In this document: piece after piece, positions 13,201-38,100 of the stretch
How positions within the stretch are numbered: position 1 is the first letter of the stretch
Layout of the letters: each line of letters opens with the position of its first letter
Made by a program: the position numbers and the translations under genes
From: Albula goreensis
Taxonomy: Eukaryota > Chordata > Actinopteri > Albuliformes > Albulidae
NCBI GenBank assembly: GCA_022829145.1
Contig: CM040756.1
Location: forward strand, 4,079,023 to 4,143,022
Length of the DNA: 64,000 nt
Direction of reading: 5' to 3'
Notes under the pieces: model-generated
What the model was told of the DNA's origin: nothing
Databases searched by the model: none
The model's input: only the letters and a program-made list of their open reading frames with translations

Positions 13201-15020
13201 TGTTTATGTGAGGCACTGGCCAACCGCACACCTGTCCTGGCACACGGTACGCAGTTGTTTTCTTGGCTGATTTGGACGGGCGAAAACGAAGACTGGCCAA
13301 AGAGTCTACCTCCCTGTGTGGGGAAAACTGAGATTACAGCAGAGAAGCCAAAAGAAGATTACAGGATTTGCAGTATTTGTGTCTTAAGAGGATCACGGGA
13401 GCTCCCTGATGCTAAATCAATACAAAACTAAAAACAAAGGCAATACGCATAGAGCAGCAGAGATCAATATTACTGTAGTGACAGATAACATGCACAGAAT
13501 ATTCGCTGGATGTGTGTCTGACATTAGCACATTGGCTGTCTCTGTCAGAGCAATAGTGATGGTGATTCTTTAGCATCTCCTGTCGTTTTTACAGTACAAT
13601 ACAACGGGTCCCAAACGTTACTACCACAAGACTCACCTAATGATCGCAGATGTTTTCAGCTCACAGCTTCTGGTTAGAATGCACACTAAAACGTTATTAC
13701 CACAGAAGCTACAGGGTGTGGACTGAATCTTTAGCATTGGATGTAACAGGTACAGTGGTTAATTGACTGGTTCGAGTGACAGTGGTTTGTGGGACTGATT
13801 CAGTAGAGGTACCAAACATGCTTCAGTCCAGCTATAAAAAGAGTACTATATATGGAGTATTTGCCCTGTTCCACATGCTCAGCTTACACTGTGTGAGTGA
13901 GGGGGTATTTATATACCTCCAGTGACTTTTGAAATGTCTGGCTCCTCCTTCATTAAAAGCGTCTTCTCCTCTGAGCTTGGACTGCTCCAGCTCTGCTTTT
14001 TTGGGTCAGTCCTGGTGAAGTTACCTTGGAAAAGATCCCCTCAGTTCAGTTGGGTGTTGGAGAGTGTTTGACACACAGTGAGTTATAGGTGTGTGAATCT
14101 TCTGACTCACATCAACCCCTGTCATGATTCACTGAGTCCCACGGTGTGGGAATCACTGCTGTAAGGCACACTAGGGCAGACAGGGCCGGTACCTGGCTTC
14201 TTATACTGGTCCGATCATGAGGGAACAGAAGAAACGTCCGGAGGGCACAGAAGTAGATTTTTCCTCTTTGTTTTTTTTATCCTTTGTAATAAAGGGGTGA
14301 TAAAAACGTTCAGGGAATGAGCACTGAGGGAGAGAGAAAGAGAGAGAAAGAAAGCAAAAGAGAGAGAGAGTTTTTGGTTACTGATAAAGCGACAAAACGA
14401 CAAAGCTTGACTGGCCTGTCTGCTCAGCGTGGACGGCCTGCACTCCCACAGCAGTGAGGGAGGAGAGGAAGCAGATTACGCTTCCTCATAAGCGGGGAGG
14501 AATACACTGCAGTTCAAGCACAATATTAACCAAAATGTCTCTCGCCAAGCCAAATAAAAAGGGGTTTGAACATGAATTTGAGGGAAAGAGAGACAGAGGG
14601 AGACCTGATTTCCTGCTGCCCACCTGCCCTACCTCAGGAAGGCCGAGCCCCCCCCTCCACCCCGCCCCATTGTGGTGAACAGATACACCGACGACCACCT
14701 GCGTGAGGTGGTCAAGCGCATGAGGGAGAGGACGGAGCTGTACAAGGAGAAGGTCAACGACCCCACTGCCTCCTCCCCTGAGCCAAGCCCCCCTGTCAGT
14801 AAGTCTCACACATACACACACACGCTCACACACACAGTCACACACTCACACACTCACACGCACACACACGCTCACACACACACTCACACACACACACACA
14901 CACTCACACACACAGTCACACACTCACACACTCACACGCACACACACACTCACACACACACTCACACACACACACACACTCACACACTCACACACAGTCA
15001 CACACTCACACACACACACG

Positions 15021-15059
<39 letters not shown>

Positions 15060-15188
15060 ACACACTCACACACACAGTCTCACACTCACACACTCACACT
15101 AACACACACACATGCTCACACACACACACACACACACACTCACACACACAGTCTCACACTCACACACTCACACTAACACACACACATG

Positions 15189-15229
<41 letters not shown>

Positions 15230-18200
15230 ACTCACACACACAGTCTCACACTCACACACTCACACTAACACACACACATGCTCACACACACACACACACA
15301 CACTCTCACACTCACAAACACACAAACACACACACACACACACAAACGAACACGCACATTTGACTACAGTTCAGTCATATCCGGTAAGACCAATCAGAGT
15401 TCAAGTGCTTAAAATCTATTACAGTTTGTCAGGCTTACAATATCATTCCTATTTTTCCCTTTAACAATCCAGCCCCCGTCTTGAGAAAGTGCGACTGGAT
15501 AAAGAAACAGGAAGAGGAGCGGCTCAAGAAGGAGGAGGAAGAGAAGAAAAAAAAAGAGGAGGAAGCTAAAAAGGCAGCAGAGAAAAAGGAGAAAAAAGAC
15601 GACAAAAAGATGAAAAAAAGATGAAAAAAAAGACGAGAAGAAGAAAGAGGAGAGTAAGGAGGGGGTGGAGGGGGCGGAGGGTGAGAAGGCGGGCGGCTCG
15701 TTCTGCCCGTCCATCAGCTGTGCCTTTCTGGACATCCTGCTGAAGCCGGTGGAGGACGCTCTGGATAAAGTTGTGGGGAAATCCTTTGATCCTTACACAG
15801 GTGAGTCACACCTGCACCCCCAGCGGTTCTGTCCCCCTCTCTTTTTCTCTCTTTTCGTTTCTCATGCTCTCACCCCCTCTCTCTATCTCACTCATTCAAT
15901 CACTTTCCCCTCCTCTCTCTATCTTTCCCTACGCCCCCTCAATAATTTAATACTATTCAATATAATGTTCTTTACCAAAATTAAATTCTGAGGGTACTAC
16001 TAAATCATAATACGATTATGGGAAACTGTAACAATGTTTCAAATATTTCAATTCAGAGATTTTAGTTATTAAGAAGAAATAATAATTGTACAAGTAACCT
16101 GTAACATATACTTCTACAGACATTTCATTTTGGAATTTCAGACCACGTATATCTCCTGGTTCAGCTTGGCCACCCTTGCCTTCAATCTCTGTTTCCATTT
16201 TCTTCCTTTTTTAATCTCTCTCTCATTCTCTTCAATCCTCTCTGTCTGTCTTCCTCTGTCTGTCTGTGCAGACCGCAGGTATATCTCCTGGCTCAGCGTG
16301 GTCACCCTGGCCTTCAACTACAACGCCTGGCTGATTCCTGCCCGGATGTCCTTTCCCTACCATACCGCCTACAGCATCCCCTTCTGGATCTTCTTCGACT
16401 TCCTGTGTGACTTCATCTTCTTCGTCGACATCATCGCCTTCCGGCCCCGCCTCCAGTTCGTCAAGGGAGGTGATGTCATCGTGAGTACACTGGATGTTGT
16501 CTAAAATCAGCAAACCAATCCGCATAATGATATGTAGTCAAGCATGTTGACTGTTCTGAGTAGCTGGCCCTGCTGTACACAAAAGCTTCTGGGTGTGTGT
16601 GTGCACACGCATGTGTTTTTATAAAATATGTAGTCAAGCATGTTGACTGTTCTGAGTGGTTGGCCCTGCTGTAGACAAAAGCTTCTGGGTGTGTGTGTGC
16701 ACGCATGTATGTAATTATGCTCATAAGTGCTATTTGCTAGGTGTAGTGGTGAGACATCTGAACCTCAAGCTGAAAGATCTGGGCTCAATCTTAAGGAAGG
16801 GAGTGCTGCCGTCATACAAATAAAGTATTAAAGCTAAATGAAGTTATGATTATTTAGACTGTAACTTGTGCAAACTGCGCTATTGTTTGATTAGACTGAA
16901 CACAAGTTTAAAAATATGCTTATCTTTTCAGAAAAAAACATTATTAAGCCCAACATTTCTATTAAAATCTAAGCACAACATTTTAGCTAAGAAGGCCATC
17001 AACACTGTTAAACAAAATGTTTGACAGTAATCACTACCGAAAAGCAACAGAGTGTCTTGAGAACAAAGATATACCCCAATTTAGCAGAATTTTGAAAAGC
17101 AATTAAGCAGCTTTTTAGCAGATCACTCCTGGAATAAAATCTTCAAAATTTCATTTAATATTCAGCTGAAAATGTGAGATTTTGACAGTGGGTGAGAGAG
17201 AGAGAAAGACAGTAAGGGAGAGATACAAAAGAGAGAGTACCAACAATGTTTTTTTTTCTTTCAGAGTGACAGGATTTTAACCAAGAAGAATTACAGAGAC
17301 TCGGCAGTATTTAAGGTGCAGAAATACATGTATAACGGTTTATTTTCATACTGTACAGCTCGTACCATCATGCTTCATTCCTCACACAATTTTCCTCTCA
17401 CCCTGACTTTATTTCTCCCATGTTTAGACAGACCTGCTCACTATCATACCCTTTGACCTGCTGTGTCTGAAGTTGGGGTTTAACTCCTTTTTCAGGGTCA
17501 ACCGCCTGATGAAGGTGAGTGTCAGAGAGCCAGACAGTGCACATGTGTGAGTCAGTCAGTTAATAATCAGCGCGTAAACGACCAAATCCCAAGATACCTT
17601 AAGATACTGGTTTTAAGGTACCGGTCTTAAGATACTGGTCTTAAGATACTGGTCTAAAGGTACTGGTATTAAGATACTGGTCTTAAGATACTGGTCTAAA
17701 GGTACTGGTATTAAGATGCTGGTCTTAAGGTACTAGTCTTAAGATACTGGTCTTAAGATATTGGTCTTGAGATACTGGTCTTAAGATACTGGTCTTAAGG
17801 TACTGGTCTTAAGATACTGGTCTGATACAGCAGACAATTTGGCCATGGGTATCAGGTGTGTGGACATTAGCCAATCAATCAATCAACTGCAATTAAGCCC
17901 TGAAGTACCGGAACACATCCAAAACCATCAGGACTGGAATTCCAGATCACTGTTCATAAGAATGTTACTGATGTTGTTATTGTTACTCTTCGAGATCACT
18001 GACTTCAAATCATGAATTGCATTCTTTTTCCTCCAGATGTATGCATTCTTTGAGTTCAGTGACCGTTTGGAGAGTCTGATGACCAAAGCTTACATATGGA
18101 GGTAAGGAGGAGGTTTGGACCATTGAGATGAGAGTTCAGTACAGTCTTGTTTTAATTATTGTTCTATGAGTTCAGACCACTAAAAGGGATGAAAAATTAA

Positions 18201-21200
18201 TGGTGCTTTTTAATATTGCACTATAGGTTTGGACCATTGAAACAGAGCTCAGTATGGTGTATGTTGCACTATGAATTTGGACAGTAAAAATCCAGCTTTC
18301 ATATAGCCATTGATTTCCTGAGATAGCGTCAGCAAGCACTGAACATTGTTAGAGATGTGAAAGGGTCAAGCACTTCACTGTTTTGTTTTCTCAGAGTGAT
18401 CCGAACCATCGGATACCTGATATTCATTCTACACATCAATGCCTGCATCTACTACGTCGCTTCAGCCTACGAGGGCATCGCATCCACCAAATGGGTTTAC
18501 AGTGGCAAAGGCAACGCGTATGTAAACATCTCCAAATGACAGGACACTCATGAGAGGAAGTGATCACCAGACACTTTCACCTTTGACATTAGCGAAGCTA
18601 CATCATGGGTAAAACATAACTTTTCAGCAACACTATGTCACAGTTTCTTCTCATCTGTAAGATTACCTTACAGGATTTTATATTTTTGTTACACATTGCA
18701 TTTCTCTAAACATTTTAAAGAATACTTTTTATGCATTTACATAACTTAATGTTTAGATTTGAGGGGAAAATTTTTTCACCTTTTTGAGTATCATACTAAT
18801 TGGCATATATAATGATTTTTGTGCATATTTTTAGGATACGTTTCATTTTTACTTTTGCTCTTTTCTTTAATCATGTAACTCATAGGCAACAGGGGTTCTT
18901 ATTTTGACTGTTTTCAGTGTTTTTGTGCTGTTTTAGCTACCTGAGCAGTTTCCTCTATGCTGAGAAATCACTGCTGATGATCGCAGAGCTGCCCACGCCT
19001 TGCACCATGTTCGGCCAAATCTTTCAGATGACAAACTACTTTTTTGGAGCTCTCTTTTTGTCCACAATTCTTGGGCAGGTACACAACTATCCATGTTGTA
19101 TGTTTTTTTTTTTTTTTTTTTTTTTTTTTAAGTTTCATTTTTTCATTTTATCTTTTTGTTTTTTTGCTTGATGATCCGAGCATCAGATAGCGCCGTTCAT
19201 ATACTATGCTGTGCTATGCTATGCTGTGCTTTGCTAACCTATGCTATGCTAAGCTAAGCTGTGCTATGATACGTTGCACTAGCAGTCATTTCGCATCCTA
19301 TACCCTTCTCATGTGGAAACTTTTTTTCTTAACTTTCCGATTTTTTCTCTGCGTCCTAGCTTAAAATCAACCCAACTTATTGTTCTACTGCTAGCTAGCC
19401 TTTCTTGTCAGCTTTAGGAGGAGAGAGCCATATTTCCTTCAATGTAATTAAAAAAAAAAAGTCATCATGCAGGTGTGATGTCAGAAAATAACATGGCTGA
19501 AGTCCTCCAGTAGCGCTTCACAATTCCTCCTGGCCATTCTCAGTGTTTTTTCATTCTTCGTTTTTTACCCTTTTTATTTTCTGTGTTTGTAATCTTTCTT
19601 TTTTTTCATAAAAATCATTTTTGTTTTTACTTAATCGCATATATCTAATGGATTACTTCTACTTTAACAGTGTCTCTCAGTTTGTATTTAAGCAGGTTGT
19701 ACAGTTCACAGTACATTGCACTACCACAACATTACAATACATTCATGTAGCAGGATGCAAGTGGGATACAGTAGGATCTAGTTCCTGCACGCTACATCTT
19801 TAAATGAAAGAAGGAATTGCACTTGGACCACAGAAATTGAATCGTCACTCACTGCAGCTCAGATTAAAAATAGGAATATGAGAAGGGAGGTGGAAATTCC
19901 CACCTTCAGAAAGAAGCACTCCAGTGTATTTATTTCACCCATGCACTAAAACAGAATGATTGTCATGAGATCTGTTTTGCCAGGTAGGAGAGCTCATTAA
20001 TGAAATTTGCTTTGTAAATAGTAGTGCTTCTTCTTTCTGCAGGCAGGAGTCTCCACTCCTGTTTGTATGTGTGTGTTCGTGTTTGTGTATTGGTGCTGTG
20101 TAGGTAGGAGTGTGTGGGGAAGGGGTTGTACCCCTCCAATCCATGGCTTAACAGTTGGGGTTTCATGTAGTTTTCCTCTTAGTTATTTACAGTGCTGTGG
20201 AGGAAGCAGTACAAATTAGAAAACTAATAACTAATAACTGTGTAACTCTTTCATGACCTCAGGACAGGTGTGCTGAGTCCAAGGTGTTAGGGGACAGGTG
20301 TGGGTGTGTGTTAGGGGACAGGTGTTGGTGTATGGGGAGAGGTGCAGGTGTGTCTTAGGGGCAGGTGTAGTTGTGTTATGAGCAGGTGCAGGTGTGTCTT
20401 AGGGGCAGGTGTAGGTGTGTCTTAGGGGCAGGTGTAGTTGTGTTATGAGCAGGTGCAGGTGTGTCTTAGGGGCAGGTGTAGTTGTGTTATGAGCAGGTGC
20501 AGGTGTGTCTTAGGGGCAGGTGTAGGTGTGTCTTAGGGGCAGATGTAGGTGTGTGTTTGGGGCAGGTCTGGGTGTGTCTTAGAGGCAGGTGTAGTTGTGT
20601 TATGGGCAGGTGCAGGTGTGCGTTGTATGAATCCAGGTATCATTTTTCCCGCAGGTACTTGCGCTGTTACTACTTTGCTGTTCGCACCCTGATCACCATC
20701 GGGGGCTTGCCCGAGCCCGTGACGGTGTTTGAGATCATCTTTCAGTTGTTGAACTATTTCACAGGTGTCTTTGTGTTCTCCAGCTTGATCGGACAGGTAG
20801 GAGCATGAAGCGGTAGCTGGATCATGGCAGAGGCCTACTATAGATGCAGAGAAAATGAGTTTTGTAGCAATCATTTATCCCTAGACACAACAGGTGGCTG
20901 AAAAAGTTAATTTATGAGAAAAAGAATAAGAAAAGCTCACTTTTCTTCAGTAATAACCTAGAAAGTTTAAATGCTATCTGTTGCTATTGGGTTGTCTGTT
21001 GTTATGCTGTGTTGCATGAAAGACCATTCTAGAATGTGACAGCGAGGATTCTGGAACTTTTGTCTGGCTATGGCATTCCTTACGGTTCAACATCAAGGGA
21101 TAGGTTTGCCTGACTCCACATGACCTATGACCCCTGGCTCTCTTCGCTCTGTCTCACAGATGAGAGATGTTATCGGGGCGGCTACTGCTGGGCAGACATA

Positions 21201-24200
21201 CTTCCGCAGCTCCATGGACGGCACCGTGGCGTACATGATGGCAAACCGCATCCCCAAACTGGTCCAGCAAAGGGTGCGCACCTGGTACAACTACACCTGG
21301 GACTCCCAGAAGATGCTGGGTAAGGCCTGGGGATTCTTTAAATTCATTTGTGTTACAATTGTATACATTTATTTAATTTTCCTTATCTTTTAGTAATACT
21401 AAATAGAATAGAAAATGCTTCTTCGATATGATCATTTCTGCAGTACATAGATGGACAACAGAGAGCTGAAGATCACACACAATAAGTGAAAAAAATAGAA
21501 AACCCCTGCCTTTCCAAGTGTCAGAAGATGTGATGTGATTGCTGAATGAAACAAATGGCCTCACGCCCCCTCCCCCCTCCCCTTCCCTACACACGCACAC
21601 AGACGAGTCAGAGCTGCTTGTGCAGATGCCTCTCGTCATGAGGACCGCCATCGCCGTGGATATCAACCTCGCCACCTTCCAGAAGATCGACCTGTTCAAG
21701 GTGAATGCCAAAGAACCTCCTCGGCACCAACACTTTTCTTAAAGTCCTACTCCAGCCAAACGGACCTCCTGATTTGACTCAGAAATACTCATGGAATGGG
21801 AGTAGAGCGTGGTGACATAGGAGTTCATTAAACTAGTTGTAAAAGGAACACCTCCATATTTGTCCATTAACTTTATGAACTGTAATGCTAAGTCATATCT
21901 GGCAGCTTCTTTTCTGTGATATATTTCTACAACAGTTACTATCACTGAGGGCATACAAACTTAGCTCAGCCTCCCCCAGTAGTGTCATTATTTAAATGAG
22001 GTCTTTATCGAGTTGAGATCTTGGGATTATACAGTGTTTAGCTCGGAATAATTAAAGAGTAAAATAAGCAAAGTCCCATGACTCAGTGAAAGTGAACGCT
22101 GTGTTGAACAGAGACGAGGTGCAAAGTTTGTGCTGCCACAGCTTTCTCAGACTGAAGGAAACACATAATTCAGCGTCTGATTGGGTGATGATGCTGAACC
22201 GTCCAATGGTCAGTGTGCAGGGCTCTGGGCTGAAACACCAATGGACAATGTGTTTGTTGCAAGGCTTGAGCAATCGGGGCTGTAATTGGAGAGGACTCGA
22301 GTCCTCATGAATAATTAATGACCAGTGTCAGACACACACATGCTCAGCCACACACATTTTAATCTAAAAAAGGATGAATGCTATTATCTCATAACTGATG
22401 ATTGTTTATTATTATTTAATACAGTTGAGGCTAAGGTAACAGTGCTATGAAAGCTGGATGACCATGTTTTTTTCTGACCTGTTAACTAGATAACTAGATG
22501 ACAATTGTTGTTTCAGGGCTGTGATAACCAGATGCTTGTGGACATGTTGCTGAGGCTCAAGTCTATCGTGTATTTACCAGGGGACTTTGTGTGCAAGAAG
22601 GTGAGGAAGTGGATCAGAATTATCTTGACATCAAATGACAATAATTTTAAAGGACAAATGTCTACACATTACACACTACTTTTTGATGTTTCAGGAAAGG
22701 GTATAATATAAACACTTTGCATAATTTGTAATTGCTTTTTTAAATTGTATTCTTGCTCATTTCTCAGTTAGTTTCTTGACTAAACAGACCTTCACTTTCT
22801 GGTTTTTACTTCTTTGTGTCTGGTCTTGGCTGTATCGTCTTTCTCTTCCTGATTTCGTCCCTTGGCTTTATAGTATTTCACTACACAGTGTCTGTTCCTT
22901 GGGTGTGTCGTCTCTCACTTCCTGTTTCCTTTTCCTTGGGTGTGGCTTCTCTGCTGCTGCCCTCCTTGACTCACGTATTTCCTCTCCAGGGGGATATAGG
23001 GAAGGAGATGTATATTATCAAAGCCGGGGAGGTGCAGGTGATCGGGGGACCCGACAATAAGATCGTATTTGTGACGCTGAAGGCAGGATGCGTGTTTGGA
23101 GAGATCAGGTAAAGCAGGATGTGGTGTTCGTATTTGGGAAGTGACATCACACATAAAACTGTGCAAATACAGATCTGCTTAGTCAGTTATATTGGACATA
23201 AAATCTGTTTTACAATCAAAATGCTGTAGACATATACATTAGTCATCATTTATTGGTTGAACATTTCTGTAATTTTTGCACATTTATGGAAGTTTTTACT
23301 GGACAACCTCTGTTGACTTCTCTGTTGAACTTCTGCCATTCTATCTTTAGTAGAGTTTACAGATAACTTTGGTAACTGGAAGTATCAGAAGCAGCAGCTA
23401 GCCGCTGGCTGACACATCAGATGCTTATATCATAATGGAGTGAGAAGTCAGACGAGTAAGGCTACTGTCCATATGTGTCTCTATCAGCCTGCTACAGTCT
23501 TCCAAAGATGGAGGCAACAGGAGGACGGCTAACGTGGCGGCCCACGGTTTTGCAAACCTCTTCGTGCTGGACAAGAAGGACCTCCAGGACATCCTGGTGC
23601 ACTACCCCGAGGCTCAGAAGATATTGGCCAGGAAGGGCCGGTGAGTGATGACAGTCTTTGAGTGGAGCATCTCTCAGCTATATGTGTAGGGCAGCCATTG
23701 TTGTTGGGCCCCTGAGCAAGGCCCTCAACCTCAACCCCACATTTCTTGGTTAGCCTAATCAACTGTAAGTTGCTTTGGGTAAAAGCATCAGCTATATGAC
23801 TGTAATGTAGTATATCACATTCTACAGTTTTAAAAATAGGGTTTCACAGTAATCCAAGTGTGAAAGTTGAGCTCCTCTTCCTCCTAGCTTGGTTAGCTTA
23901 GCAAGTTTGGTGATTCCCAGGTCAACACTCTCTGCTTACATTTTACGAGTATTTCTTCCTGTAAAATCGGGACATTTGGCCAATATGTCAGGAGTCTGGA
24001 TCCCAGTCAGGGAGCAGCTGGTGTATATAAAACATCCTGAAAAGAGACCTATCAGCCCGTATAAAAGGATATACAACAGGGGATGGTAGAACAGCAGTGG
24101 AGAGGAGCAGCAGGTCCTGTCATGTGACTAGATGATTCAGATTTAAAAAAGGGTTCTCAACCTCACAAACGGATAGTAAAATAACTAATAGATAGCTATT

Positions 24201-24941
24201 TATGAGATTCATGCCATACTGCAACTGGATGCCAATAAAGTCTGTCCAGAGTTCTCGTTTCAGACACATGTGCTCTTGACAAAGGCGTAATTAGGACAAA
24301 GACTTGGAATGCTGTTTGTCATTGAATGGTTCCATACCTTCTACTCTTCTTCCTCATTAGGCAACTGATGAAGTCTAAAGCCCCCGCCGCAGCCGCGGCA
24401 GAGGCGAACAAGAAGACAGGAATGGCTTTGTTCGCCCCCAAACCCCCCACCCCGAAAATGCTCCGCGCCTTTGGACGGTTCAACAAAGCGGCTTTCATTG
24501 AGAAACTCAAGGTACCTGCCCAACTTTATTATTCAATGCAGAACCTCAAACAGGCTGACTGTCAGATTATGTGAAACAATAGGTCTTATGTACAATTAAT
24601 CAACAAGCAGGAGCTAGCAAAGTTGAGTAGAGCTAAGGGCTTGCTGTAAGAGTACAAAGCTAGTTCTCTTGGCTGGGGACCTTGGTCTTTAGCTTACTGG
24701 GATAGCTGTATGTCTTGCTGAGCAAACCACACAGATAAAAGTCATTTTTAAACTGCTATTTTGGATTTTCTTTTCATGTTAGGAATGGGATTGTTTTTCC
24801 CTGTGCCATGTACTTGTATGCTGAATTTAGGCGGGAGTCATATGAGAGCTGTTTATGTGTTCTTGCTTTTCCCCTGATATGTCACATGACCTAGCCCATT
24901 TCTCTCTCTTTCAGCTGGCGTCAAGTGGAGACAAGCAATAA
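10019..24941 (+). CDS. cngb3: Cyclic nucleotide-gated channel subunit beta-3-like, copy A (18 exons, with a frameshift in exon 5)
   Basis: This is the modulatory subunit of the cone cGMP-gated cation channel. Exons 1-3 encode a Pro/Ala- and Lys/Glu-rich N-terminus. Exon 4 carries [16 protein letters not shown], the CNGB3 N-terminal calmodulin-site region; CNGB1 differs here. Exon 6 encodes S1-S2, exons 8-9 S3-S4, exon 10 S5, exon 11 the pore (TIGGLPEP) and S6, exons 12-13 the C-linker, and exons 14-16 the cyclic-nucleotide-binding domain with FGEI and NRRTAN. The spliced length is about 779 residues once the exon 5 reading-frame break is allowed for, close to the roughly 809 of human CNGB3; the C-terminal tail is shorter. 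The start codon opens a phase-0 first exon matched by copy B. An alternative pore exon lies at 18937-19078. Identity is well supported by synteny with CPNE3. Whether the gene is intact is uncertain because exon 5 is frameshifted. Confidence 0.9.
11475..11535 (+). CDS. cngb3: CNGB3 copy A exon 2
   Basis: Encodes the charged segment [20 protein letters not shown]. The 61-nt exon is bounded by ccccag and gtaagc and matches copy B exon 2 in phase and composition. Confidence 0.75.
12611..12710 (+). CDS. cngb3: CNGB3 copy A exon 3
   Basis: Pro/Ala-rich then [20 protein letters not shown]. It is 100 nt, with acceptor tgtgcag and donor gtgaga. The tail EEKPxDPAN is shared with copy B exon 3. Confidence 0.75.
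14638..14798 (+). CDS. cngb3: CNGB3 copy A exon 4
   Basis: 161 nt encoding [20 protein letters not shown] followed by [16 protein letters not shown] and SSPEPSPPV. Human CNGB3 has the same arrangement (a Tyr-Ala-Asp-Ala segment, then VKRMRQRTALYKKK, then SSPEASP). This is the best short argument for CNGB3 over CNGB1. Confidence 0.9.
14806..15352. repeat. Large CA/TCAC microsatellite with higher-order repeats
   Basis: About 550 bp of CACACA/CTCACA begins directly after the donor of exon 4. A block containing CAGTCTCACACTCACACACT then CACTAACACACACACATGCT recurs at about 15075, 15148 and 15240, so there is a higher-order period of roughly 73-92 bp. Thr-His open frames here are repeat artefacts. 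Confidence 0.9.
15473..15800 (+). CDS. cngb3: CNGB3 copy A exon 5 (contains a reading-frame break)
   Basis: Begins [20 protein letters not shown], then a Lys/Glu coiled-coil-like stretch, and ends [20 protein letters not shown]...DPYT. The entry frame reaches TGA at 15622. The exit frame is open only from 15614. The exon is 328 nt, not a multiple of three, whereas copy B exon 5 is 285 nt and in frame. The break lies among A5 (15604-15608) and A7 (15613-15619) runs. Two missing A residues would restore a regular KKDE repeat, so an assembly error is plausible. Confidence 0.8.
16142..16186 (+). pseudogene. Broken duplicate of the start of exon 6
   Basis: After an acceptor-like tttcag, about 45 bp match the first bases of exon 6 (TATATCTCCTGG.TCAGC.TGG, CACCCTTGCCTTCAA). 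The match has a 2-base deletion near its start and no downstream donor, and is followed by a pyrimidine tract like the one before the true exon. It lies 130 bp upstream of the real exon and cannot be used in frame. Confidence 0.7.
16272..16480 (+). CDS. cngb3: CNGB3 copy A exon 6 (S1-S2)
   Basis: 209 nt encoding [20 protein letters not shown] (S1), [13 protein letters not shown]2, then [12 protein letters not shown]. The FPY.TA and PRLQFV.GGD motifs are conserved in CNG channels. The first 118 nt are identical to copy B, and the rest is clearly diverged. Confidence 0.92.
16530..16715. repeat. Tandem duplication, about 95-bp unit
   Basis: Two near-identical head-to-tail copies of a block starting ATGTAGTCAAGCATGTTGAC and ending GCTTCTGGGTGTGTGTGTGC, in intron 6 of copy A. 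Confidence 0.85.
16738..16830 (+). mobile_element. Possible tRNA-derived SINE head
   Basis: GTGTAGTGGTGAGACATCTG resembles a Pol III A box region, and GGGCTCAATC about 40 bp later resembles a B box. GTGCTGCCGTCAT then follows, a common start of fish SINE bodies. No full element is delimited. Confidence 0.35.
17265..17315 (+). CDS. cngb3: CNGB3 copy A exon 7
   Basis: 17 codons, [17 protein letters not shown], in phase 0 at both ends. This is the S2-S3 linker. Copy B has [17 protein letters not shown]. Confidence 0.88.
17428..17514 (+). CDS. cngb3: CNGB3 copy A exon 8 (S3 and start of S4)
   Basis: 29 codons beginning [18 protein letters not shown] and ending [13 protein letters not shown] is the conserved S3 motif, and the Arg/Lys residues begin S4. 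Clearly diverged from copy B, which has [10 protein letters not shown] here. Confidence 0.9.
17593..17825. repeat. Minisatellite, about 14-15-bp unit
   Basis: About 15 imperfect copies of AAGATACTGGTCTT, with variants AAGGTACTGGT. It is in intron 8 of copy A and has no spacers, so it is not a CRISPR-like array. Confidence 0.9.
18037..18101 (+). CDS. cngb3: CNGB3 copy A exon 9 (S4)
   Basis: [20 protein letters not shown] then WR, ending two bases into the Arg codon (AG|gtaagg). FFEF..LES...KAY is strongly conserved among CNG subunits. Confidence 0.92.
18395..18517 (+). CDS. cngb3: CNGB3 copy A exon 10 (S5 and turret)
   Basis: [20 protein letters not shown] is S5, followed by [20 protein letters not shown]. 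The turret has WVYSGKGN where copy B and human CNGB3 have WVYDG-GD/EG-, so an acidic residue near the outer pore is lost here. It ends GC|gtatgt with two bases of a codon, and fits either downstream pore exon. Confidence 0.92.
18937..19078 (+). CDS. cngb3: CNGB3 copy A alternative pore exon 11a
   Basis: A second, complete pore/S6 exon lies upstream of the usual one. It has acceptor tgttttag, donor CAG|gtacac, 142 nt, and the same phases as exon 11b. It is fully open: [20 protein letters not shown], then [20 protein letters not shown], then LSTILGQ. Ungapped alignment to exon 11b gives 20 of 47 identical residues. In the filter, MIAELPTP replaces TIGGLPEP, which puts Glu where CNGA subunits have their pore Glu (TIGETPPP). 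Including both exons would shift the frame, so they could only be used alternatively. It may be an alternative exon, or an older native exon now bypassed. Confidence 0.72.
19103..19131. repeat. Poly-T tract
   Basis: A run of about 27 T lies just after exon 11a. On the opposite strand it could be the A tail of a retroelement, but I see no body attached. Confidence 0.7.
19197..19272. repeat. Imperfect CTATG/CTGTG tandem repeat
   Basis: Repeated GCTATGCTGTGCTATGCTAT words with TAAGC variants, in the intron between exons 11a and 11b. Confidence 0.7.
20272..20625. repeat. Minisatellite rich in GGGGCAGGTGTAGGTGTG (copy A)
   Basis: Imperfect 20-45-bp units of GGCAGGTGCAGGTGTGTCTT run up to the acceptor of exon 11b. 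The same repeat occupies the matching place in copy B (34660-35055). The last units and the acceptor are nearly identical between the genes. Confidence 0.9.
20655..20796 (+). CDS. cngb3: CNGB3 copy A pore exon 11b (pore helix, filter, S6)
   Basis: 142 nt encoding [20 protein letters not shown] then [20 protein letters not shown] and FSSLIGQ. This is the canonical CNGB pore. It differs from copy B exon 11 at a single silent position (141 of 142 nt identical). Identity stops just past the donor: gtagga here, gtacaa in copy B. Confidence 0.93.
21160..21319 (+). CDS. cngb3: CNGB3 copy A exon 12 (C-linker)
   Basis: [20 protein letters not shown], then [20 protein letters not shown] and KML. This is the C-linker A'-C' helices, which couple nucleotide binding to the gate. 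160 nt, ending G|gtaagg. Confidence 0.93.
21603..21700 (+). CDS. cngb3: CNGB3 copy A exon 13 (C-linker)
   Basis: [20 protein letters not shown] then [13 protein letters not shown]. 98 nt, phase 0 at the end. Copy B is almost the same. Confidence 0.92.
22517..22600 (+). CDS. cngb3: CNGB3 copy A exon 14 (start of nucleotide-binding domain)
   Basis: [20 protein letters not shown] then PGDFVCKK, 28 codons. Only two bases differ from copy B, both silent. Confidence 0.93.
22990..23108 (+). CDS. cngb3: CNGB3 copy A exon 15 (nucleotide-binding domain)
   Basis: [20 protein letters not shown] then [19 protein letters not shown]. This is the beta-roll leading into the phosphate-binding cassette (FGEI). 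119 nt and in frame, unlike copy B, which is one base shorter at the G run. Confidence 0.93.
23488..23640 (+). CDS. cngb3: CNGB3 copy A exon 16 (cGMP-binding core)
   Basis: [20 protein letters not shown] then [20 protein letters not shown]. The NRRTAN stretch holds the Arg that binds the cyclic phosphate and the Thr linked to cGMP preference. [10 protein letters not shown] is two residues longer than the human LLAAGGGN loop. Confidence 0.93.
23690..23815 (+). mobile_element. SINE-type 3' tail
   Basis: TTGGGCCCCTGAGCAAGGCC, then CAACTGTAAGTTGCTTTGGG, then TAAAAGCATCAGCTATATGA. This is the widespread teleost SINE/LINE 3' tail (CGCTTTGGATAAAAGCGTCTGCTAAATGA in other copies). The element is truncated at its 5' end. 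Confidence 0.65.
24361..24511 (+). CDS. cngb3: CNGB3 copy A exon 17
   Basis: [50 protein letters not shown]. The PPTPKML motif corresponds to the ETPKLF region after the binding domain of CNGB3. 151 nt, phase 0 at the end. Confidence 0.88.
24915..24941 (+). CDS. cngb3: CNGB3 copy A exon 18 (terminal)
   Basis: LASSGDKQ and stop TAA, after a strong ctctctctttcag acceptor. The C-terminus is much shorter than the long acidic tail of human CNGB3. Confidence 0.75.
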   Translation: MASSGDKQ

Positions 24942-29111: not shown

Positions 29112-32100
29112 GTCGAGGGTAGTGGTGCAGTAGTGTAATTTCTTCTTAAAAGGTTTGAAATTTTAAGTCCAAGTTATTGATCTTGGCTCAGGGAATGGCA
29201 GAGACAGTCATTTTAGTGATTCGGCCCATCTGCTGTTTTCTACACTGCAGAGAGGGCTGCAGCTTCTCCAAAAAGCCCGGATACAATATTTACCTTTGCA
29301 ATAATACCACGCAGCAGCCTCCTCCCTTTGCTTTGAGCCGCACCTGTTCTCTCTGTCAGCACAGCTCTGGTTCACAGTCTGGGACTGTAAGGAGCAGATG
29401 AGAGGAGATTACTGGCTTTGCAGTATTTGTGACTTAAGAAGATCGCACACCAGGCAGCCCACGTGAATCAGATGTTCATCTTCTGTTTCATTTTTTGGTT
29501 TATTTTTCATTGCTCTCTGGAATTTATTTCTACATTCCTTAATGTTTCATTCATAATTTACATCGCAAGAATATTTGCAAGTGTGAATTTGGGCCATATA
29601 GTCACAATTTGGTGGTTCTGATGACATGTAATATGCCATTTGCCACTCTCAAAATGGTTGCTACTAACTGCTGCTAGTTACCAGAGTGACCTTTGTGACA
29701 TCACACTAATGTCTATGTGATGAGTCTGCTCTTTGAGATCCACACTATCTTATAGTATTGGTAGGCAGAACCATAACTGTGAATTGTATTTTGCTTGTAC
29801 ACTATCCCTAGCAAATGTTTTACAACACCTACAGGATACTAATAATAACAATATAATAATAACAATAATTATTCGTGTCATTCTCAACATGATGGTGAAG
29901 TAATGGAGCTGGCAATTCACTTCATGCTCCACTGATCTGAAATGGCCAGTGTGCTGTAGTCCCTCCATCTGAACAGGCAGGGAGTCAAGACCAGCAGTAG
30001 TTATCTGATTACCCTGGAGGTGATTAAGAGGCCAGATTGTGAGAGATGGGAGATTAGGGACTAAGCCAGGACAGGGAGGCAACCATCACTGCTCTTTGCT
30101 AAGAGTGGAGCACAGTCTCTAAATCAGCCCTTGGCCCTTTGAAAATACACATCAAAAAATTAACACAGAGTTGTGACATCGTTGGTAACGGAGATAGTTG
30201 TAAAGGTCACACCATCTCATCTGTACAGAGACACAGACTACAATATTCCAGCTATTATTATAATTATTACTAATAATAACTAATAAAAACTGCTTAGTAT
30301 TTTTTTCCATGATGAAACATTATTGTTAATATTTATTATAATTATACGTTAATAGTATGTGGTACATTGTCAGTTTATACTTATTTATACAGTATTTCAT
30401 TGGTCTGAGGGTCAATAGTGAATCCATAGGTGGAAAGATGAATAGCCTTGGTGGTTTATGCTAATTGTTGTGTCATTTCCTGTCCAGCCAGGAAATGGCC
30501 CCTCCCCTTGAATACCATAACCCCTAATTGTTGTGTCATTTCCTTTTCAGACAGGAAGAGGCTCCCCCACCTCCACCTCCAATCGTGATAAACCGCTATT
30601 CAGACGACCAGCTGAGAGATGTCATCAAACGCATGCGGGAAAGGACCGACATTTACAAGGAAAAGGTCATCGACCCCTACGCGTCCTCACCTGAACACAG
30701 CCCGCCCGTCAGTAAGTCTCCATGGTTACCAATATACATCTCACACAGCCAATCATGATCCCAGCAAAAGCGATATTTTTGGAAACACTGGTGAAGGATT
30801 CCCAGTCAGAACCCCATTCAGTCAGAACACTATACTTTGAACACTATACAGAATACTTTGAAATGTTTTTAAATCACAATCACGAAATAACAGCTCTGCA
30901 AATTATATGAAATGTCCAGAAAATTGTTTCTCTCATGACAGGCAGCTGAATAGATTGGGTGAAGTGTTTGCTCAGTGAAAAGTGTAATTGTTTTTTTTTT
31001 GGTCTGGATTTAATTTACATGCAGCCATTTATTTTTGCCAAATACAGCTCCGGTCTACAGAAAGTGTGACTGGATAAAAAAACAGGAGGAGGACAGGATC
31101 AAAAAAGAGGAGGAAGAGAGGAAAAAGCAGGAGGAGGCAGCTAAAAAAGCAGCTGCAAAAAAGGATGAGAAGAAGGACGATAAGAAGAAAGAGGAGAAGA
31201 AGGAGGAGGTGGTGGAGAAGACAGACGACTCCATCTGTCCCACCATCAGCTGCAGCTGCCTGGATGTCCTGCTCAGACCTTTGGAGGACAAAATGGACAC
31301 CTACCTGGATAAGACAGTGGATCCCTTCACAGGTGAGTCACTCTGCATATACCTGCCATACCTGACAGGTACAGTGACCCCAACATGGAGGTGTGTACAA
31401 CCCCTCTGTGCCTGCAGCGACAGGACCTGTTATTCTTAGTCCCTCTCTTCCTTTTTCTGTATCTTGATCACTCTCTATTCCATTATATTCCATTTTCATT
31501 CCAACTCTCCCTCTTTATTTCTTTTTCTCTCTGTCTCTTTCTTTCTCCATTTCTCTGCCATTTATTGTTTCTTTCCCCTCTCTCTCTCTGTCTCTCTCTC
31601 TCATTCTCTTCAATCTGTCTGTCTTCCTCTGTCTGTCTGCGCAGACCGCAGGTATATCTCCTGGCTCAGCGTGGTCACCCTGGCCTTCAACTACAACGCC
31701 TGGCTGATTCCTGCCCGGATGTCCTTTCCCTACCATACCGCCTACAGCATCCCCTTCTGGATAGCGTTCGATCTCCTGGCGGACTTAATCTACATCGCCG
31801 ATATGCTCATCTGGCAGCCCCGCCTCCAGTTCGTTAAGGGCGGCGACATCATCGTACGTTCGGGACACCTTCGGGAATTTGAATCTTCGCTCACCTAGCC
31901 CCGCTCATCTTTAGCCTAGCCTAGCCTAGCCTAGCCTTGGCTCCAGACACCCACTGATTGTACTCACCAGAACATTGGTATTGTGTTTTTTTTAGGCGCC
32001 AACTGCTTGATTGGTCCTAAGTTTCTGAGGGTGGATTCGATTGGCTGGGGGGTTTCTGGAGGCATTTAGCCACTTCTGATTGGCGTCCTGCCAACACAAG

Positions 32101-35100
32101 ATCACAACTAGTCATAAGTGGTTCTGATAACAATTGGTTTATTTGCAAAGAACATTCCTCAAGTTGGTGGAAGGGATGGGTGACACAGTACTTTGTATGA
32201 GCTTGGTAAGGGAGGCAAATGTACATATTTTTTTCCAATATGGAAATATAACTGCCAAAATTCTGTTGCTTTGCTAATAAACCAACGGTTGCTACGTCTG
32301 AAGAATCACTGTCTCATCAGGGTAGCCAATGGGTCTCGGGGTGGGCGTTTGAATGGCCTTCAGCTGGGTCAATGTTCCCAGCCTGAGCAAATGTGTCAAG
32401 AGAAATCTGCCGGTACCAGTCATGGTCCAGAATTCCGGGCCAGAACAGTTAATGAAGCAATCCAAGCACTTTTTCAGAGATTGAGTCTGGAGTCTAGGTT
32501 ATCGCTCAGCTAACTAAAGAAAGTGTCATTCGTAGAGAGACTAAGCCATTTAAGATATCCAACAGGTGTAAGGTCTATGAAAGATATACCATATGGCAAT
32601 ATATAGGTTGATATTCTATATTTTAGACACTGTAGAGGTTAATTAAAACAAAAGTACAAAAGCTTCATGTAAATTTAATTTCCACATGTGTGTTTGTGTG
32701 TGTTCGTATGTGCACGAGAAAATATATGCGTATTTGTGTGTCTTCTTTTTTCAGAAAGACAGGACTTTAACAAAGAAGAATTACAGGGACTCTCCAAGGT
32801 TTAAGGTAGGAAAATGCATGTCTTTATATATAATTCTTATGCTGTAGATGCAGCACTAGCAGGAGCTGTAGAAGTGAAGTAGTAGAAGCAGCGTAAGCAG
32901 TAGTCATAGCAACTCAGGACAGACATTGGAGCCTCCAGTTTGAATGCTCAAATGTTCATTTAAAATCAAATATTGCTCAGATTTCTTCTTATTTGCTCTG
33001 GTTTGTTCCCCGTTCAGATCGATCTCATCACAATCATTCCCTTTGATGTGCTGTGCTTCAATTTCGGGTTCCTGTCCGTCTTCAGACTCAACCGGCTGCT
33101 GAAGGTACGCTGAGACTGAGCTGGTGCGGTCTGCAGTGATGCATTTCTACTGTTTTATCGTTTCAATGAGCCATAAGGCTGAAAAAATGCTTTAGTCCAG
33201 GTGCTCGTTTCAGAAAGCGAGCATCTGCTAATGTTACTCCAGGTGGGAGATCTGAGGAAAATCAAAGGGGAGAAAAAGACATTATCCTGCTGGGGGTTAC
33301 CTGAGGTGGTGGCGGGGGTGGGGTGAATTTGAGACCTGAAAGCCAGATATACAGTGGGGTCCAAAAGTCTGAGACCACACTGAGCTTTTGCTTCAATTTT
33401 TTTTTTTTTTTTTTTTTGCCATGTAATCCTTGAAATAAACAGAAAGTTGTAGGATTTTGAAAAATTTAAAACAAGATATTTTAAAGAAAATATAAAAAAT
33501 AAGAAATATTTAAAATATTAATTAAAGTCTCTGGGTCATATTTAAGCAAAATTGTGACATTGACCACAGTAACTAACAGTAAAGGTCAGACCCCATCAAA
33601 CATTTATGGGGCACTTAAAGGCCAAGAAAGTTTTTGGACACATAAAGACCATGGCATAACATGGATCATCAAGTTTTGCACAAACTTGTGGAGTCCACAC
33701 CAGCTGCAGTGCACATTGTCATTAAAACACAAGGAGGAAATACCAAAACTGAGATATTCTGAAATTCATGAACATTTTTCAAAGATTTAACTTTTCACTC
33801 AAAGTATTAGTATTATTTGTAATAAGAAATGTTGTACTACATTATAAAAGAATGCACTTCCACCAGTGGCCTGAGGCTTTTGGACCCCACTGCAGTCACA
33901 GTGAATTCTGGGTATTAGGCCTTTGCCTGGGTACCATTCAGCTTCACCCATGTTTTTACCTAAACCTGTACGAGAAGCTAAGTCAGCTCATGTCACATGA
34001 CGTCAATTTCCCCCCTTTCACCCCCGCAGCACGAGTCGTTCTTTGAGTTCAGCGATCGTCTGGAAAGCATCATGGCGAAGGCCTACATCTGGAGGTATGG
34101 GATGCAAGGGAACGGTGCACAACTTCAACACAGATCAAACAAAAAAAAAAACCCTTGGTCCATGTCTTATAAATGTGAAATATGACAGACAGTTCTTTTT
34201 TTGTGTGCATGTGCATGTGTGTACCATGCTGGTCGAGCAATGAGTCACTTTTTCTTCAGTGACATCACAGTCATAGCTGTCAGCCAATGAAATGACAGTA
34301 ACTCACCCTGTTTTCCTCAGAGTGGGACGGACCACCGGTTACCTGCTGTACATTCTGCACCTGAACGCCTGCATATACTACACAGCGTCGGTGTACGAGG
34401 GCATCGGCTTCACCAAATGGGTGTATGATGGCGACGGCACAGCGTATGTCACCCTTTCCACATGTTTCTATTCTGCTAGTTCCGGGAAAAGGCGTGCACT
34501 GAGCTTTTTTTTATTAAGGTTCTAAGTCACAGCAGCACCTAAATATGCCATTTTTCTACAGTTAGAAGGAGGAGAGAACACAGCATACAAAAATATGTGC
34601 CCAGAAAGTGCAGAACAATGCATTTTAATAAATACAGAATTAAATTGTGTGTGCATTTTGGGCAGGTGAAGGTGTGTACTATAGACAGGTGTGGGTGTGT
34701 TATGGGCAGGTGCAGGCATGTGTTAGGGGCAGGTGCAAGTGTGTCATTGGGGCAGGTGTAAGTGTGTTAGGAGCAGGTGTAGGTGTGTCTTAGAGGCAAG
34801 TGTAGTTGTGTTATGAGCAGGTGCAGGTGTGTGTTAGGGGCAGTTGTAGTTGTGTTATGGGCAGGTGTAGGTGTGTCTTAGGGGCAGGTGTAGGTGTATG
34901 GGGGCAGGTCTGGGTGTATGGGGGGAGATGCAGGTGTGTCTTAGGGGCAGGTGTAGGTGTGTCTTAGTGGCAGATGTAGGTGTGTGTTTGGGGCAGGTCT
35001 GGGTGTGTCTTAGAGGCAGGTGTAGTTGTGTTATGGGCAGGTGCAGGTGTGCGTTGTGTGAATCCAGGTATCATTTTTCCCGCAGGTACTTGCGCTGTTA

Positions 35101-38100
35101 CTACTTTGCCGTTCGCACCCTGATCACCATCGGGGGCTTGCCCGAGCCCGTGACGGTGTTTGAGATCATCTTTCAGTTGTTGAACTATTTCACAGGTGTC
35201 TTTGTGTTCTCCAGCTTGATCGGACAGGTACAAATATTAAACCCTTCCTTGAGAGGTCATCTTTGAAGTAGATTAATATTTAATTAATATTTAAAAATGA
35301 AGAAGACATTAATATGGATGGATGTGTATACTGACACATTGACAGACACAGACATACAGATAAATTTGGAGATAAAAGGACAAGGCTTTGGTTTGTTGTT
35401 AGAAATATTAATTTGTATGTATGCATTTGAATTCCACATGTGATAAATATTATTCAGAACAAACTCTTAAGAGTTCAGCATTAGTTGAACCAAAATGCAA
35501 TTTTAGCTGGTATGTTTTCGTTCTATGGTGAAAGGTAAACAAGACTCCACAGCCCTGACTGTATTAGGAAGCTCATCCCACCACTAGGGGGCAGTAGTGA
35601 AAATGTTTTTTCCCCCTTCATTTGTCTCATGGCACAGATGAGAGATGTTATCGGGGCGGCCACCGCTGGACAGACGTATTTCCGCGGCAACATGGATGGC
35701 ACCGTGTCATACATGAACAAGTACAGGATCCCCAAACTGGTCCAGACCAGGGTGCGCACCTGGTACAACTACACCTGGGACTCACAGAAGATGCTGGGTT
35801 AGTCCGTTTGGTTACACACTGTACCTCTAAAACAGGGGTTCCCAACCTGGGGTGCACACACACCCAGGGGGTGCAAGATGGAGTTGCAGGGGGTGCGACA
35901 AAGAGCGGCTTGTGTCCTTGAGAAGTGGTAGTTGGTGAATAACAGAATTAACTTGGAAGTAAAGTAACTGATTGTCAGAGTATTGCTTTTGAATCATTAT
36001 AACGCAACATCTGACATAGTCATTGTCTGTTGTTGCAATCAAATTCACGATCACGAGCTTTGTTAGGTATTTCACCCCTTGGGGCCTCTCAGCTCGCCCA
36101 TCATCACCTCTGCTCACATGCACCGGCTTCTTCATCTTCAAATGTGATATTACTTTTTGTAGGGGGTGCAGAAATTAATCAAACATTTCAAGGGGTGTGG
36201 GGCATAATAAAGGATGGGAACCACTGCTCTGAAATCAAAAGTTATAATGCTCATAATTAAGTGCTTGACAAGTGGGTCTACCTTTCTAACCCTAACCCTA
36301 ACCCTACCTTCTCAGGGACCAGCTTCTTCCATTCAGTAAGGCAGACATTAAATAAATTTGAGGATGACTTGGTCTTTTTAGTTAATTAATAAATTATTGT
36401 ACTTAGGACATGAGTTGTAAGCAAACGTGTTGCACTCCAGCCAAATGAAAAGCATTGAAATACACTCAAATTAATTCATACATAAAAGCTACCATCAAAA
36501 GTACTGTTTTTTTCCCAGTTTATTCCTTTAAAACCACTTTTAGATCTTTATTTAATTTCTCTGCTGGTCTGAAACATCAAAAATGAAAATGTTATAATAT
36601 GCCAATACAATTAAAATTGTGATTCATCACAATTATTGCATATGAAGATATTTTTGTCTAAATAAGACTGAATTTGATATGAGATATTACTCTACCTCTC
36701 ATCCCCCCCAACTCCCCCCACACAGATGAGTCAGAGCTGCTCGAGCAGATGCCCCTCGTCATGAGAACAGCCATTGCCGTGGATATCAACCTCGCCACCT
36801 TCCAGAAGATCGACCTATTCAAGGTTAACCCCCCCCAGCCAGACCCCACTTCTGTGAGGACTGTGTCCATTTTTAAATTTCCTTCTCTTTTTGTGGTCAG
36901 ATCACCTTTGATACTTCTGTCAGGGCAGACTTTGCCTGCAACAAACAAACAAGTGGAATAATAAATAATTGAAGATTATGTAGTCCTATCATTAACGTTA
37001 ACTGATATTTCATCTAATTTTCTTCATAATGACAGCTGAAGACTGTTCTAATGAAATGTTTCCATAACCAGCATTAGTAAACTGGAATACTTGGCGAATT
37101 GGTTGAGTGGGAGGTGTCCATCCCTGGTGAGGGGCCTTGTACCTGAGGAGTTGCAGGTTCAAGTCCCAGCTGTGCCATGAGTTGACTCTGACCAGCAGAA
37201 GTCCATAGTGACTGCATTCAGGATTTGACTGACCCCTAGCTGGAGGTCAGCTTGGCTGACATCAGCATTTCATGAAGTATCACTGTATTAGTTTCTCCCA
37301 GCAACAGCATGGCATGTCATTTGTCAATAGGGAGATGTACTGTACACCTCTGATCCAATCAGGTGCTAGGTGAATACCTCTCCTCCGATAAAAGTAAAAA
37401 AGGGAAAAAAAAATATATATATAAGCAAAATGGACTTCAGTTTGAAGAAAAACAGATTAAAAAAAAAAACTAAATGCTACAGCTTTGCATGTTGAATGCC
37501 AGCTTTTAATGAGAAGTACCATTTATTCTACCCTGTCATATGGCTCCATCAGTCAGACACAATTCATTTTTTTAATTAACTTAAACCTCAAGCACAGTAG
37601 AAGACAAAACAATATACATTCTTCATAAATTATTTTTTTTTTGTTGACTTTCAATTTATGGGAACAATAAAAACAAATTGCATTAGCGTACCCTATGCTA
37701 GATTAAGAGCAGTGCACTCTGGTCATGTGAATTTATAGCTGTAACTATGTGGATTAGTCTCTGAGCTCTTGCCCCATTCTATTTGGCACATCAATGCCTC
37801 CAAGCTGAAATGGCCTGTGATCTAGCTCCCCCTGCTGGTGAAAATATATGTGCCCTACTTTAGGAAGGTGTTGATATCTTTTCACCCACTTACAGAGTAC
37901 ACATACATCATTATTCGAATGTAGCAATACAGTAAATGGATAAATCTGTGAACTGAGATAAATAAACATGTATTGGCTTTTTTTTATTGCTTTGGGCTGT
38001 GATAACCAGGTGACCATGTTGTTTCAGGGCTGTGATAACCAGATGCTTGTGGACATGTTGCTGAGGCTCAAGTCTATTGTGTATTTACCTGGGGACTTTG

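Follow-up and report, generated by a model that had tools for sequence, protein, structure and literature searches.

A putative alternative pore exon with a filter glutamate in one of two tandem cngb3 copies of Albula goreensis

The tandem cngb3 copies and the exchange between them

The window, that is, the whole stretch of 64,000 nt of Albula goreensis DNA that was analysed, contains two tandem copies of cngb3, here called A and B (Table 1). Exon numbers were fitted to the labels 10, 11 and 12 used in an earlier note on this DNA. The assembled protein of copy B matched human CNGB3 (8ev8_D) with an E value of 4e-218, and exon lengths were equal in 10 of the 14 modelled A/B pairs. Exons 4, 15 and 17 differ in length; the difference at exon 16 is due only to the end of the copy B exon being modelled one base short. 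For exons 4 and 15 the difference comes from a frame break in one copy, and exon 17 differs at its end. In exon 4 of copy A (15473-15800), which is not open throughout, the frame changes in an A-rich stretch at about 15610-15635. This break is either a real frameshift, in which case copy A itself could be damaged, or a homopolymer assembly error. Similarly, exon 15 of copy B (38461-38578) has one base fewer than its copy A counterpart, the difference falling at a G run, and its expected frame is closed by either a frameshift or a homopolymer error. The C-terminal exons (24361-24511 in A and 39854-39985 in B) have different ends after a common 11-residue motif. Two local repeats were also observed: in copy B (37994-38042) the first 15 nt of exon 14 and the preceding G are present twice, 33 nt apart, around the acceptor, and in copy A a 14-nt tandem repeat lies between exons 7 and 8 (17557-17877), the 16 copies listed all lying in copy A. 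Among ten other long open reading frames, out of the 240 listed for the window, Pfam gave one weak match only, below the cut-off, and Rfam gave nothing at the gathering threshold in the whole window.

Table 1 Main features of the cngb3 locus
Feature	Position	Strand	Basis
cngb3 copy A, 15 modelled exons including 11a and 11b, first exons outside the model	14638..24511	+	exon model
Copy A exon 10, S5 to turret, ending GC followed by GTATGT	18395..18517	+	exon model
Copy A exon 11a, putative alternative pore-S6 exon, filter MIAELPTP	18937..19078	+	translation, tblastn, phmmer, exon model
Minisatellite of 21-23 nt just upstream of 11b, common to intron 10 of copy B (about 34597-34966)	20273..20642	+	repeat comparison
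Tract that differs from copy B at only 4 of its 302 nt and runs to the exon end	20495..20796	+	blastn/alignment
Copy A exon 11b, canonical CNGB pore-S6 exon, filter TIGGLPEP	20655..20796	+	translation, comparison with copy B
Copy A exon 12, C-linker, common to both putative isoforms	21160..21319	+	exon model
cngb3 copy B, 14 modelled exons, single pore exon	30551..39985	+	exon model
Pore exon of copy B, encoding the same residues as 11b	35086..35227	+	tblastn, exon comparison

According to the available parts of the papers concerned, a local duplication of CNGB3 into cngb3.1 and cngb3.2 is found across teleosts (PMC9803222), and in zebrafish the two genes are partitioned among cone types (PMC9803222, PMC8405809, PMC8370914). 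Copies A and B fit this tandem duplication. The same parts of these three papers make no mention of a second pore exon.

The unconverted upstream exons of A and B have a pooled dS of 0.94 (0.63-1.56), and most introns gave no alignment when A was compared with B by blastn. Exon 11b, in contrast, is identical to the pore exon of copy B at 141 of 142 nt, with 3 differences in the 159 intron bases upstream of it, and the identity runs only 3 nt beyond the 3' end of the exon. Judged from this alignment, 11b is a recent gene-conversion tract that copy B has in common with copy A. In exon 5 the two copies are identical over the first 118 nt (16272-16389 in A, 31645-31762 in B) and then diverge abruptly, and this 5' part is, on the same kind of evidence, a second conversion tract. 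Around exon 15, the exon and parts of its flanking introns (22746-23309 against 38190-38796) align at about 86% between the copies, unlike most introns, which marks the region in the alignment as another exchange tract. The near-identity of 11b and of the exon 5 part, set against the divergence of their neighbours, indicates that the pair swaps exon-sized patches, and the minisatellite that precedes the pore exon in A and B alike may promote this exchange.

Exons 12, 13 and 16 are nearer to copy B (pooled dS 0.36) than are the unconverted upstream exons, which prompted the idea of a gene fusion by unequal crossover, with 11a from one copy and 11b onward from the other. This idea was set aside because blastn of introns 11 to 13 gave no A/B alignment past the exon edges, and patchy, exon-centred conversion fits better.

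Since 11b was exchanged with copy B, the divergence between 11a and 11b cannot date the exon duplication. The dS between 11a and exon 11 of copy B is 1.70 (0.86 to saturation), which suggests that the split between these two exons is about as old as that between A and B, or older. Exon 11a could thus be copy A's own older pore exon, a point missed by the earlier note.

Anatomy, homology and frame of the two pore exons

Exons 11a and 11b are 142 nt each, are preceded by AG and followed by GT, and have equal phase. They share 20 of 47 residues and, at the nucleotide level, 80 of 142 nt, and differ at 19, 16 and 26 sites of codon positions 1, 2 and 3, respectively (27 at the third position when the exon of copy B is the reference). 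Coordinates, length, shared phase, GT-AG sites and residue identity as given in the earlier note were all reproduced on the sequence. The frame of 11a runs through its 142 nt without a stop or indel and its flanking AG and GT are intact, so the hallmarks of a dead exon (stops, indels and broken splice-site dinucleotides) are absent from the exon and its flanks. This anatomy is real and unusual.

When the window was searched with 11b by tblastn, the matches were 11b itself, the exon of copy B and 11a (E 6e-10). No further pore exon was found in the window by tblastn and blastn, the next-best tblastn matches of 11a or 11b having E values of at least 0.031, and neither program found a counterpart of 11a in copy B. 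Among PDB chains, phmmer aligned all 47 residues of 11a with CNGB1 (best E 2e-5) and CNGB3 (best E 8e-5), without gaps across the CNGB pore helix, filter and S6. The remaining chains at E<=10 belonged to the NaK-type potassium channel only, one of them being a chimera with the olfactory CNG channel; save for this chimera, no CNGA chain was found at that threshold. On these matches, the homology of 11a and 11b is not due to chance. The scores for CNGB1 and CNGB3 (27.7 and 26 bits in phmmer) are too near each other to separate the two as the origin of 11a. Exon 11b corresponds to the canonical vertebrate CNGB3/CNGB1 pore exon (PDB 8ev8_D, 7rh9_B and others) and is identical to human CNGB3 at 41 of 47 residues, against 18 of 47 for 11a, which matches the canonical pore gaplessly over the 47 residues but has MIAE for TIGG. 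Pfam assigned no family to any of the three 47-residue pore exons (11a, 11b and that of copy B), and is uninformative on 11a because the canonical exons gave none either.

The terminal GC of exon 10 (at 18517) is completed to an Ala codon by 11a and 11b alike. When only one of the two is used, whichever it is, the frame is open through exon 12. If both are included, a stop is reached after 25 codons of frame-shifted 11b, and if both are skipped, a stop follows directly after the split codon. The modelled ends of exon 12 are one base short in A and B, so the read-outs with 11a only or 11b only are frame-shifted after exon 12; the two stops are unaffected. A full-length subunit therefore requires exactly one of the two exons, because both or neither brings an early stop, and the proposal of the earlier note that they are mutually exclusive by frame is supported. 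Scored with vertebrate site frequencies, the 3' and 5' splice sites of 11a reached 2.9 and 0.2, compared with 4.3 and 4.4 for 11b and 4.3 and -0.1 for exon 11 of copy B. The scores of 11a are weaker than those of 11b and lie inside the range of the other exons of the gene pair, and its donor starts with GTACA, as in the pore exon of copy B. The intron separating 11a from 11b is 1576 nt long and therefore imposes no steric block on splicing 11a to 11b, so any exclusivity would depend on frame and decay, or on regulation.

Coding history of exon 11a

The earlier note took the open frame of 11a as an argument against a recently dead copy. Openness turned out to be weak evidence, since 13-21% of matched neutral simulations were free of stops, and a recent death remains compatible with it; a long death, in contrast, is disfavoured by conservative changes and the absence of indels. 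The simulations, which are coarse, were matched on differences per codon position, conditioned on no stop, and used exon 11 of copy B as ancestor. The BLOSUM62 score of 11a against 11b was 107, whereas the simulated means in five settings were 61.3, 65.4, 61.9, 66.8 and 70.1 (P 0.0000, 0.0047, 0.0088, 0.0072 and 0.0136). Similarity of 11a to human CNGB3 and CNGB1 was also high in the simulations (P 0-0.0054), and its S6 contains zero charged residues (P 0.006-0.031). No significant departure from the neutral simulations was seen for identity (P 0.12-0.31), for hydropathy correlation (P 0.23-0.27) or for the mean hydropathy of S6 (P 0.32-0.33).

Exon 11a is free of indels over its 142 nt, although about 9 would be expected at d 0.57. 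This expectation comes from two aligned intron pieces with 5 indels per 46 substitutions; in a third piece, 159 columns long, there were 3 substitutions and 0 indels. A truncated S1 exon relic bearing an acceptor-like CAG also lies in copy A (16139-16185) and ends 86 nt upstream of the real exon (16272-16480). The relic is identical at 42 of 49 columns, yet it has a 2-nt deletion and lacks the 3' half. It thus provides an internal contrast to the indel-free 11a, with decay seen despite high identity.

Periods of neutral evolution were simulated on two grids, one with neutral periods <=0.2 and the other with omega <=0.5, both assuming a conservative-change filter. On the first grid the eight best-fitting settings had no neutral period, and the best score was 0.133. 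With a neutral d of 0.1 the best score there was 0.016, and on the second grid it was 0.0003 at d 0.3 and 0.00004 at d 0.4. In some low-omega settings a short neutral period fitted better than zero. Coding in which stops were barred and no amino-acid preference was applied scored 0.021 at d 0.5, no more than about six-fold below the best fit. In a separate simulation, 88% of copies were still stop-free after a neutral d of 0.03.

The dN between 11a and exon 11 of copy B is 0.51 (0.33-0.76). The dN/dS check proposed in the earlier note was run on the 11a branch within this locus and gave about 0.6-1.1 (canonical branch about 0, half of a dS of 0.94-1.70), which is not confidently below 1, so constraint was not shown in this way. 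Of 35 residues that fish 11b has in common with human CNGB3 and CNGB1, 11a altered 18, the filter Thr and Gly among them; it retained 17 of these 35 invariant sites and 3 of the 12 variable ones, which shows no confident preference for the invariant sites (Fisher P 0.19). Neither the Fisher test nor the stop-only constraint control favours the reading as a live exon. Changes found only in 11a affect 23 of its 47 residues, compared with 13 of 137 sites in neighbouring exons of copy A and 7 in copy B; this relative-rate count covered five unconverted exon pieces of copy A, with exons 3, 4 and 14-17 left out and one exon 6 residue trimmed for the human alignment. These results suggest that 11a stayed coding under loosened or shifted constraint and evolved fast, possibly with a recent retirement. 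A coding history of 11a is supported, though not proved, by the substitution pattern.

The 11a filter, competing explanations and meaning

The filter motif of CNGA subunits is taken here, as in the earlier note, to be TIGETPPP. Unlike this filter, 11a is without the filter Thr and Gly and retains a CNGB-like LP.P. Aligning MIAE with TIGG places the Glu of 11a at Gly410 of CNGB3, the position of E368 in CNGA3, with residue numbering as in the available part of a review (PMC10761061), and in having a Glu at this equivalent position 11a resembles CNGA. At human CNGB3 positions 403, 407, 408, 409, 410, 430 and 434, 11a has Lys, Met, Ile, Ala, Glu, Gly and Leu, respectively. In the comparison with a CNGB-type pore, Gly410, Thr407 and Gly409 were thus replaced by Glu, Met and Ala, whereas the positive charge of the pore helix (R403 to K, as in CNGB1) and the hinge Gly430 are kept. 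The alignment bears out the claim of the earlier note that the Glu sits at the CNGA pore-Glu position, but a simply CNGA-like filter is too simple a picture, because besides the Glu there are the changes of Thr407 to Met and Gly409 to Ala in the filter and of Phe434 to Leu at the gate.

As described in the available part of the same review, the CNGB Gly leaves three Glu in the channel ring, Ca2+ binding would be weakened by the positive charge at 403, and changing Gly to Glu in CNGB1 made the Ca2+ block of the heteromer much stronger (PMC10761061). From this mutant effect and the logic of the ring, a stronger Ca2+ block would be expected from 11a. The 11a form would probably give a CNGB3 with altered Ca2+ block or conductance, and the Met, Ala and Leu changes make a lowered conductance or a silent subunit a real possibility.

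The nearest functional parallel is invertebrate NALCN, for which alternative pore exons 15a/15b and 31a/31b have been reported (PMC3557258). As far as the available part of that paper describes them, these are likewise tandem mutually exclusive exons over the pore helix and filter (exon 15 also covers the start of S6), with a filter Glu in the upstream exon and another residue in the downstream one. Unlike 11a and 11b, however, they belong to a four-domain family, were seen in cDNA, are conserved across phyla and swap E for K, whereas the present pair lies in the CNG family, comes from one vertebrate genome, is known from DNA alone and changes several filter residues. Vertebrate tandem duplicated exon substitution events (PMC9741552, PMC5740500), to judge from the accessible parts of these papers, also involve neighbouring homologous exons of which one is used at a time, as is proposed here, but they are described as expressed isoforms. 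CNGB3 splicing variants are the subject of PMC12146803. In titles and abstracts retrieved from the openly reachable literature, with subscription papers mostly outside, no alternative CNGB3 pore exon was described, which agrees with the statement of the earlier note. Tandem mutually exclusive pore exons are already known and, as far as searched, new for CNG channels. We know of no alternative filter exon previously found in the CNG family.

The best explanation, which we hold with middling confidence, is that 11a is a genuine alternative pore exon of cngb3 copy A, spliced mutually exclusively with 11b. The anatomy, frame logic, homology and conservative substitutions were observed, and splicing in vivo, assembly and altered block are inferred. 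In the proposed mechanism, the spliceosome would join exon 10 to either 11a or 11b, and productive transcripts would carry one pore, both or neither ruining the frame. The 11b form would be an ordinary CNGB3. The 11a form would retain the layout of pore helix, filter and S6, the positive charge of the pore helix and the S6 hinge glycine, and in a channel of three CNGA3 to one CNGB3 it would complete a ring of four Glu. The likeliest effect of this form would be a stronger Ca2+ block and a reduced conductance, which would tune the current of cones or pineal cells. Against this explanation, the branch dN/dS fails to show constraint, an 11a-type filter might be non-conducting, the frame break in exon 4 may mean that copy A is damaged, and copy B lacks a match to 11a in tblastn and blastn. 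A variant of it, in which the subunit made from the alternative exon is non-conducting or dominant-negative, is consistent with the replacement of the filter Thr and Gly by Met and Ala and of the gate Phe434 by Leu, but CNGB3 is one quarter of the tetramer and conduction may survive; we consider this version highly improbable.

A weightier but still somewhat unlikely alternative is a recently retired exon, in which 11a once served copy A as its native pore exon, or as a working alternative, before conversion with copy B provided or renewed a canonical 11b, and is by now unused, though too recently to have decayed. A recent exchange is indicated by the 1 difference in 142 nt between 11b and copy B and the 3 in the adjacent 159 intron bases. 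The dS of 11a against exon 11 of copy B, 1.70 (CI 0.86 to saturation), is compatible with the 0.94 (0.63-1.56) of the unconverted A/B exons, as if 11a were native, its GTACA donor resembles that of copy B, and the 88% of copies stop-free after a neutral d of 0.03 would allow for a short disuse. However, a normally constrained sole pore exon should not outpace its neighbours as 11a did, in which 23 of 47 residues carry changes unique to it, compared with 13 of 137 sites nearby. The identity to copy B also stops 3 nt beyond the exon, which points to a homologous exon already present in the recipient. If 11a were instead a long-dead exon duplicate, open by chance, the branch dN/dS near 1, the 13-21% of stop-free neutral simulations and the non-significant identity, hydropathy and invariant-site tests would all be accommodated, and exon debris does exist in the same gene (the S1 relic at 16139-16185). 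The conservative substitutions, zero indels and intact splice-site dinucleotides argue against this, as do fits several hundred-fold lower at a neutral d >=0.3 than at the best coding setting, a coarse comparison across two grids, and a long death is accordingly rated improbable. More improbable again is a poison or decoy exon, where joint inclusion of 11a and 11b, or competition between them, would cut cngb3 output through nonsense-mediated decay with no second protein. The stop after 25 codons of shifted 11b and splice-site scores below those of 11b are in keeping with such a role, but a decoy needs neither conserved residues nor an exact 142 nt, and 11a shows kept length and conservative changes.

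CNGB subunits help to set the strength of Ca2+ block on the light-sensitive current. Even if 11a is retired, the locus is a clear case in which gene conversion has homogenised a pore exon of two old tandem duplicates, with a divergent pore exon adjoining. Tentatively, and with more doubt than belief, the finding can be read as a vertebrate cone CNG gene that switches its selectivity filter by splicing, with 11a adding a pore Glu and so making a four-Glu ring with CNGA3. If true, cells could adjust by splicing both the Ca2+ block and the conductance of the light-sensitive current. A gene able to choose a Gly or a Glu filter would demonstrate that photoreceptors can tune Ca2+ block in this way, and the choice would offer a natural test of why CNGB lost its Glu.
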